Part shown: in pieces, positions 3,861 to 5,468 of the stretch
Numbering within the stretch: the first letter of the stretch is position 1
Layout of the letters: each line of letters starts with the position of its first letter
Assembly (NCBI GenBank): GCA_903943955.1
Contig: CAJAPZ010000064.1
Span: forward strand, 1 to 34,562
Direction of reading: 5' to 3'
Length of the DNA: 34,562 nucleotides
From: an uncultured Actinomycetes bacterium
Lineage (GTDB): Bacteria > Actinomycetota > Thermoleophilia > Miltoncostaeales > Miltoncostaeaceae
Notes under the pieces: generated by a model
The model's input: the letters and a program-made list of their open reading frames with translations, nothing else
Told to the model about the DNA's origin: nothing
Database searches by the model: none
Program-made: the position numbers and the translations under genes

Positions 3861-5468
3861 GTGGAGAAGTCAGAGGCACTTAACTCGGCAGTCGCGCAGA
3901 TCGAGAAGCAATTCGGCAAGGGCGCGATCATGCGGATGGGGGATATGCCCCTGGCGAACATCGATTACATCCCCACCGGGGCGTTAGCGCTTGATGTCGC
4001 CCTCGGCATCGGCGGGTTGCCCAAGGGCCGCATCGTTGAGATCTTCGGCCCTGAAGCCTCCGGCAAGACCACGCTGCTGTACCACGTGATGGCCCAGGCC
4101 CAGCGCAGGGGCGGCCTCGCCGCCTTCATCGATGCCGAGCACTCACTCGACCCCGCATATGCCCGTCGTATCGGCCTGAACACCGATGAGCTTCTGGTGT
4201 CGCAGCCGGATCACGGTGAGCAGGGGCTCGAGATCGCCGACCTCCTGGTGCGTTCCGGATCGCTGGACATCGTGGCCATCGATTCCGTCGCCGCGCTCGT
4301 GCCCAAGGCCGAGATCGAAGGCGAGATGGGCGACCATCACGTGGGCCTGCAAGCGCGGCTCATGTCGCAGGCACTCCGCAAGCTTGCCGGCACGCTCAAC
4401 CGCGCCGGCACCATCTGTGTGTTCACCAATCAGCTGCGCGAGAAGATCGGCGTGATGTTCGGGTGCTTCCACCACGATGCACCGGTCATGCTCGCCGATG
4501 GCACCACGATGTCGATCGGCCGCATCGTCATGGAGCGCCTCGATGTCGAGGTGATGTCCCTCGATCCGGTCACCGGACGGGTGGAGCCGCGTCGGGTGAT
4601 CAACTGGTTTGACAACGGTATTGCCGAGGGGTTCCTGCGTATCCGGGTGTCGGGTGGCGATGGCGCACGCGAACTGCTGTGCACACCGAACCACATCATC
4701 ATCACCCCCCAGGGTGAGATCCCCGCAGGAGATCTGCGTCCGGGTATGGAGGTGTACGCCACCGAGCCGGTCGCTGTGCCTGCAGGTGAGCGCGTGCTGG
4801 TGGGTTCCGCCGGGGCATGCGATGCGTCACCCGAAGGCCATTACGGGTTTCGCGCAGTGCGTTCGTTTGTGCTCGGCGTTGAGGTCGTCAGCGGTCTGGC
4901 CGACATGCGCAGGTTTGACATGGAGGTTGAGGGCAACCACACATACCTGGTGGATGGCGTGGCGGTGCACAACTCGCCGGAGACCACGCCGGGTGGTCGC
5001 GCCCTCAAGTTCTATTCGTCTGTGCGACTTGACGTTCGCCGGATCGAGAACCTGAAGGAGGGCGCCGAGGTGATCGGCTCACGCGTTCGCGTGAAGGTCG
5101 TGAAGAACAAGGTCGCGCCGCCATTTCGTCAGGCCGAGTTCGACATCCTGTACGGCGAGGGCATCTCGCACGAGGGAAACCTGATCGACCTGGGCCTCGA
5201 GCACGACATCGTCACCAAGAGCGGGTCGTACTTCTCATTCGGGGAGGACCGGCTGGGGCAGGGGCGCAATGCGGCCCGGGCGTTCCTCAAGGAGCACCCC
5301 GAGATGGCCGACGTCATCGAGCTGCGCATCCGCGAGGCTGCGGGCGTGTCGGACGCACCGCCGGACGCTGAGACCTCCGAGGCCTCCGAGGCCTCCGAGG
5401 TCGTCGCCGACGACGTGGCAGATGGCGACAGCACGGTGTCTAGTGAGTCGGAGGCCAAAGCGGCCTGA
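3861..5468 (+). CDS. recA: RecA recombinase precursor containing an in-frame mini-intein
   Basis: Homologous-recombination ATPase and LexA co-protease. The precursor has 535 residues; excision of residues 202-371 would leave 365, normal for RecA. Seen: Walker [10 protein letters not shown] at 63-71, [42 protein letters not shown], the L2-region [14 protein letters not shown], and after the intein [20 protein letters not shown]. The acidic tail contains TSEASEASE from a 9-nt tandem repeat. GTG 3861 is chosen because it begins the conserved N-terminus and has AGGGGG (3850-3855) just upstream; the frame is open back to 3669, but that is leader DNA carrying the promoter and SOS box. No recX follows. 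A strong hairpin lies 9 nt after the stop. Confidence 0.97.
4464..4973 (+). mobile_element. RecA mini-intein (170 residues, no homing endonuclease)
   Basis: Protein-splicing element inside recA. It begins with Cys (TGC 4464) right after GVMFG and ends with His-Asn (AAC 4971-4973), followed by Ser as the +1 extein residue of SPETTPGG. Block A is the segment from [13 protein letters not shown]. Block B contains the TxxH motif in CTPNHIIIT. Block F is [16 protein letters not shown] and block G ends VAVHN. All residues needed for class 1 splicing are present: Cys1, block-B Thr and His, the block-F Asp, penultimate His, terminal Asn and Ser+1. No full LAGLIDADG endonuclease fits in 170 residues. 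From memory, the insertion point and sequence ([16 protein letters not shown]) resemble the M. leprae RecA intein rather than that of M. tuberculosis. Confidence 0.95.
5370..5396 (+). repeat. 9-nt tandem repeat, three units, in recA tail
   Basis: Three units of GAGGCCTCC (the first reads GAGACCTCC) encode TSE/ASE repeats of the acidic RecA C-terminus. They lie in frame and probably affect only tail length. Confidence 0.8.

Follow-up and report, generated by a model that had tools for sequence, protein, structure and literature searches.

A putative endonuclease-free intein at the GVMFG/SPETT site of RecA in an actinobacterial family

Introduction

The recA inteins of M. tuberculosis and M. 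leprae are named in PMC5050341 and PMC7765530, and in the account given by PMC8861304 they measure 440 and 365 amino acids, respectively, and both carry an endonuclease. Natural inteins with only a trace of an endonuclease, or none, have been described in other hosts. The RadA protein of P. horikoshii, a RecA/Rad51-family recombinase from an archaeal hyperthermophile, harbors a natural mini-intein in its P-loop, which keeps a vestigial endonuclease loop and whose splicing is described as responding to ssDNA and temperature (PMC5790916). The fungal PRP8 mini-inteins, located in a eukaryotic spliceosome gene, are endonuclease-free and allelic, and have been interpreted as descending vertically and being lost repeatedly (PMC1508164). 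For a natural endonuclease-free RecA intein, we found no description at title and abstract level within a partial coverage of the literature.

Here we analyze a window of 34,562 nucleotides, contig 64 of the genome of an uncultured member of the Miltoncostaeaceae (2,017,136 bases in 176 contigs), in which recA is interrupted by a 170-residue putative intein. The insertion bond, GVMFG/SPETT, lies in the L2 region of RecA, at what we take to be the M. leprae-type site. Full-length RecA inteins of this type share with the insert the insertion bond and homologous splicing blocks, but the 34 that we read are 350-367 residues long and encode a LAGLIDADG_2 endonuclease, which the insert lacks. This kind of intein is already known and widespread, and that of the window is an endonuclease-free variant of it. 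The M. tuberculosis RecA intein, which presumably occupies a different insertion site, and the solved mini-inteins derived from it (2imz, 2in0, 3ifj and 5i0a), which we take to be laboratory-made, resemble the insert in predicted Hint fold, with Z scores of up to 22.9, and provide its top sequence match in the PDB. In its natural form, the M. tuberculosis intein possesses an endonuclease (PMC8861304), in contrast to that of the window. The P. horikoshii RadA intein is, like the insert, a natural mini-intein within a recombinase of this family, but its fold matches our model less closely (Z 15.7).

The locus thus shows a recA intein that is widespread in actinobacteria in a natural form devoid of the endonuclease, and both sister species lacking the intein and full-length relatives are available for comparison. 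This makes it well suited to the questions of how long inteins last once they are unable to home and whether an intein in the DNA-binding loop of a recombinase affects repair, and the mini-intein may prove useful as a compact natural splicing domain.

Results

Anatomy of the recA precursor

The features identified at the recA locus are the following.

3792 to 3805, no strand assigned: LexA-type palindrome CGAACATGTGTTCG, an exact match that begins 69 bases upstream of the recA start
3850 to 3855, forward strand: putative ribosome-binding site AGGGGG ahead of the GTG start, as read from the sequence
3861 to 5468, forward strand: recA, with GTG start, 535 codons and an in-frame insert
3861 to 4463, forward strand: RecA N-extein, 201 codons, ending in GVMFG, with a Pfam RecA match
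4464 to 4973, forward strand: putative mini-intein, 170 codons, from Cys1 to His169-Asn170 (C202 to N371 of the precursor), with profile and structure matches
4680 to 4694, forward strand: Cys73 followed by block B, T74-P75-N76-H77; T74 and H77 are invariant in 39/39 inteins
4782 to 4838, forward strand: linker where the lost endonuclease would have sat (intein residues 107-125), from alignment with full-length inteins; model pLDDT below 50
4911 to 4973, forward strand: C-terminal splicing blocks, namely block F with D152 and block G ending in VAVHN; D152, H169 and N170 occur in 39/39 inteins
4974 to 5465, forward strand: RecA C-extein, 164 codons, from Ser+1 (SPETTPGG), with a RecA_C match; the stop codon occupies 5466 to 5468

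In a domain profile search the exteins match RecA (6.9e-129) and RecA_C (4.1e-22), and the neighboring genes are ordinary, encoding FtsK, a RodZ-like protein, CinA, RecA, a radical-SAM protein that is presumably MiaB-like, IPP transferase, diaminopimelate epimerase and an aminotransferase. Because 12 congeneric genomes show the same site without the insert, its borders are exact and a chance or frameshift origin is ruled out. The initial annotation had described a 170-residue in-frame insert running from Cys to His-Asn-Ser, with all splicing blocks and no endonuclease, and both parts of that description are confirmed here. The precursor has a calculated mass of 57.2 kDa and the intein of 18.3 kDa, and removal of the 170 residues from the 535 would leave a RecA of 365 residues. 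The source genome holds no second full-length recA, its sole other match showing 38% identity (E 3.9e-5).

Class 1 inteins are characterized by Cys1 (or Ser1), a TxxH motif in block B, a terminal His-Asn and Ser, Thr or Cys at position +1. The insert presents C1, T74-P75-N76-H77 as TxxH, H169-N170 and Ser+1, and it sits in frame in an otherwise conserved host protein whose homologues in 12 congeners lack it; C1, T74, H77, D152, H169 and N170 are all retained in 39/39 related inteins. The NCBIfam profiles intein_Nterm (2.9e-9, 37.8 bits against a cut-off of 24.5) and intein_Cterm (4.2e-4, 20.5 against 15.6) recognize it above threshold, and the Pfam Hint and Intein_splicing profiles match it below their cut-offs. 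A Pfam scan of all 39 inteins returned no LAGLIDADG match in the insert and detected LAGLIDADG_2 in 34, a count equal to that of the full-length inteins. An endonuclease of this family acting in trans from the same genome was also considered and set aside, since a search restricted to LAGLIDADG_2 revealed no free-standing copy there.

By sequence, the solved structures closest to the insert belong to mini-inteins of M. tuberculosis RecA (E 2.1e-10). Structure prediction, on an alignment that included inteins from viral contigs, yielded a model with a pLDDT of 82.1 and a pTM of 0.79, in which the single long weak stretch within the intein corresponds to residues 107-125, the site of the endonuclease in relatives. 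The best eight Foldseek chains for this model are all RecA inteins, seven of them titled Mtu. Re-scoring of the Foldseek list with VIA-align, which does not constitute an independent search, superimposed the model on the Mtu RecA intein 5i0a with a Z score of 22.9 and an rmsd of 1.6 Å over 141 residues, and on 3ifj with an rmsd of 1.4 Å over 138 residues. The insert is therefore predicted to adopt the Hint fold, matching the splicing domain of the Mtu RecA intein.

Full-length relatives at the same site

Using an alignment of the five endonuclease-free inteins identified in the family as query, we obtained matches in 14 of 399 genomes of the class (E 1e-8) and 33 of 396 genomes of the phylum (E 1e-10). 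We read 34 RecA loci, seven in class genomes and 27 in those of the phylum sample, and in every one the intein occupies the identical bond, measures 350-367 residues and shows 38-48% identity to that of the window. Two class-level matches lie in proteins other than RecA, and the phylum genomes G742, G592 and G735 (match without a locus) and a second match in G439 were left out of the read. Same bond and common descent place the insert with this GVMFG/SPE-site group, which we presume to be tied to the M. leprae RecA intein itself; lacking LAGLIDADG, it is filed there as an endonuclease-free variant rather than as a typical member. The view in the initial annotation that RecA inteins are mainly mycobacterial is unsupported by our data, given 34 full-length inteins at this site across many Actinomycetota family codes (in which mycobacteria were not told apart) and three more in viral contigs.

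Distribution in the family

Intein matches were detected in nine of 42 family genomes (E 0.001), comprising five recA inteins and four weak matches at other loci (E 2.6e-5 to 2.8e-4). The loci of these weak matches (L040-L043), as well as L054 and L055, were left out as not RecA. Four of the carriers (G000, G002, G003 and G007) belong to the genus of the window and the fifth (G028) to another genus, and it is solely in this family that we read the endonuclease-free form. The 20 genomes of the genus comprise the four carriers, 12 empty sites and four genomes in which recA is partial or missing (G008, G015, G016 and G017); 11 of the empty sites read GVMFG/SPETT and the twelfth (G001) was established by contiguous RecA matches across the site. 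Among the 22 other family genomes, G028 is the only carrier and 13 empty sites were read, one of them as GVLLG; in G033 contiguous matches that include a frame break indicate an empty site, and in seven (G021, G035 and G061-G065) its status was not readable. Two near-identical carriers are deposited as 'Bifidobacterium breve isolate AH-24oct19-106' and 'Actinobacteria bacterium isolate RH-23may17-424'; since sister records are titled differently, we take the former title to be a mislabel.

Descent of the mini-intein

Phylogenetic inference on the inteins placed the five endonuclease-free sequences on one side of a branch with 100/100 support on 167 columns and 100/99 on 122 strict columns. Together with the seven class-level inteins they are set apart from the other 27 (99/91 and 100/97), both trees being unrooted. 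In three near pairs the intein dN/dS is 0.099, 0.077 and 0.035. Synonymous divergence of the intein is 1.26 to G007 and 0.97 to G028, compared with 0.82-1.26 and 0.65-1.21, respectively, in seven other genes or gene parts, values that between carrier groups are near saturation and would hide old transfers. A recent spread of the mini form among the three carrier groups is hence unsupported, its synonymous divergence being as high as that of neighboring genes.

In the tree of seven flanking proteins, the near carriers G000, G002 and G003 group with G009, whose site is empty (1.0), and the remaining 11 congeners with an empty site group together (1.0); the placement of G007 is unsure (0.084) and G028 falls among the outgroups. 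The RecA N-extein tree conflicts with this arrangement, setting the same trio beside the intein-less G019 (93/95) and rejecting its grouping with G007 (p-AU 0.009), with the grouping of trio and G009 not rejected (0.067). For the C-extein, none of the three groupings is rejected at 0.05 (0.463, 0.142 and 0.072). This conflict indicates that recA has recombined, in the near carriers within the gene itself, and recombination with an intein-less allele would be a simple route to intein loss. On both recA trees the carriers are scattered and intein presence amounts to three changes, so that a history of three independent old gains takes no more steps than one with a single gain and two losses, and would explain the carrier pattern equally. 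The sequence data fit a single old loss of the endonuclease, followed by largely vertical inheritance and by subsequent disappearance of the entire intein, at least twice within the genus.

We assign a probability of roughly 85% to the reading that the window carries a self-excising class 1 mini-intein at GVMFG/SPETT, derived from LAGLIDADG inteins by one old loss, inherited mainly vertically and lost in several lineages. The whole precursor would be translated and the Hint domain would then excise itself through class 1 chemistry, in which an acyl shift at Cys1 is followed by transfer to Ser+1 and cyclization of Asn170, yielding the 365-residue RecA and the 18.3-kDa intein. The ancestor would have been a full-length LAGLIDADG intein of the same site in other Actinomycetota, from which some 180-200 internal residues were lost once, before the carrier lineages of the family separated. 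The resulting mini-intein, unable to home by itself, would have been passed down mainly vertically and preserved by the dependence of RecA on splicing, with the intein disappearing altogether from several lineages.

The carrier lineages might instead have received the mini form separately, through recombination of recA segments, which we regard as unlikely. The patchiness of the carriers, the N-extein affinity of the trio with G019 together with its rejected grouping with G007, and locus L034 (described below), where a different RecA precedes the beginning of a near-identical intein, all point in that direction. Against it, synonymous divergence between the carrier groups is equal for the intein and for neighboring genes, the intein tree (G028,(G007,trio)) is compatible with a flank tree in which the placement of G007 is unsure, and no transfer younger than the split of the trio is required. 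A dead or cleavage-only intein that inactivates recA or yields fragments appears most improbable, for although splicing of this precursor is a prediction from sequence, every splicing residue is kept, dN/dS is low and the genome offers no second full-length recA.

The LexA-type operator and possible conditional splicing

The palindrome upstream of recA matches the LexA operator consensus exactly, but in the window alone it constitutes weak evidence, as 36 of 100 shuffles contained at least two matches at up to one mismatch. The core GAACN4GTTC, however, lies upstream of recA in 20/20 loci that reach the N-terminus, with or without an intein (one locus without the core was dropped), and SOS control of recA is consequently likely and unrelated to the intein. 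The proposal in the initial annotation that this recA is SOS-controlled is thereby upheld as regards a LexA-type operator. Its further suggestion, that splicing is controlled by damage, redox or metal state through Cys1, found nothing specific in its favor: the operator is present regardless of the intein, and Cys1, being common to 39/39 inteins, is no special sensor.

More broadly, the intein could have been retained as a switch, the split DNA-binding loop keeping RecA inactive until ssDNA or a redox change releases splicing, with the linker as hinge. Conditional splicing has precedents: that of the class 3 DnaBi1 intein is described as resting on Cys48-Cys118 (PMC6195587), and that of the P. 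horikoshii RadA mini-intein, which ssDNA speeds up and whose vestigial endonuclease loop acts as hinge, on intein-extein contacts with ssDNA (PMC5790916). The 19-residue disordered linker of our model, the long persistence of the mini-intein without an endonuclease and the presence of Cys73 beside block B in 5/5 mini-inteins would accord with such a role. Nevertheless, we searched for a specific regulatory feature and found none. Cys73 occurs in 7/7 class-level and 13/27 phylum-level full-length inteins (20/34 in all) and is accordingly an old trait rather than an adaptation of the mini-intein; Cys119 is absent from G007 and G028, the linker varies among the mini-inteins in both length and sequence, and near species live without the intein. 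The Mtu RecA intein is described as inhibited by copper, zinc and cisplatin (PMC8529194), an observation that can be cited in favor of metal control, but for the same reason an in vitro effect of metals on the window's intein is to be expected and would be no sign of regulation. Furthermore, a cited work states in its title that the M. tuberculosis recA intein is without effect on RecA function. We therefore consider conditional splicing very unlikely.

The same low standing applies to its most specific form, in which RecA, held inactive by the mini-intein in its DNA-binding loop, would mature when contacts with ssDNA or the filament release splicing, the vestigial linker serving as hinge. Were splicing ssDNA-gated, the importance of the locus would be much greater: the family would have retained an intein that can no longer move as a switch timed by damage, and the archaeal RadA intein would have a bacterial equivalent situated in another loop. 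We read the self-excising mini-intein favored above as a relic that probably splices constitutively, in a reaction that we would expect to be fast and unregulated.

Related inteins in plasmids and viral contigs

Searches of phages and plasmids found no close relatives of the mini-intein, all matching records (11 from phages and 34 from plasmids) falling below 60% identity. Of the matching plasmid records, 27/34 are from Acinetobacter, and plasmids of about 107 kb in this genus encode a RecA-family recombinase, WP_000126617.1, with a natural mini-intein (L112:1356-2852; NZ_CP115646.1 32260-33756). It is located in the same RecA-family loop as that of the window, but lies about three residues downstream (GVMFGDPR/CTPGG), is followed by Cys+1 and shows 26% identity.

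In locus L034 (L034:2700-3229; CAIXZV010000058.1), from a record labelled Chloroflexi, a different RecA N-terminal part leads directly into a near-identical mini-intein, of which the contig includes the initial 76 residues before it stops. The junction falls within 33-42 identical bases, the contig ends inside the intein and the remainder of this recA is on another contig; the locus was accordingly set aside as proof of transfer, and perhaps represents a chimera, perhaps a real recent transfer.

A first scan of viral contigs gave no match and a second one five more distant loci; two further scans yielded, apart from the query loci themselves, a single weak or partial match apiece. In three IMG/VR contigs (L103:1407-3485, L105:3293-5695 and L106:2981-5278), RecA-like proteins contain full-length inteins with LAGLIDADG_2, inserted at the same bond as in the window or at an equivalent one, and viruses may carry the full-length RecA-site type between recombinases; the RecA of L103 is complete, and this contig may be of bacterial origin. 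We also observed a Hint domain (CFVAST...VVHN) inside an apparent phage tape-measure protein (L107:2033-4429) and a viral protein resembling an RNA ligase that carries a full-length intein (L104:3587-5764), and an intein-containing RNA ligase is annotated in phage KLEP7.
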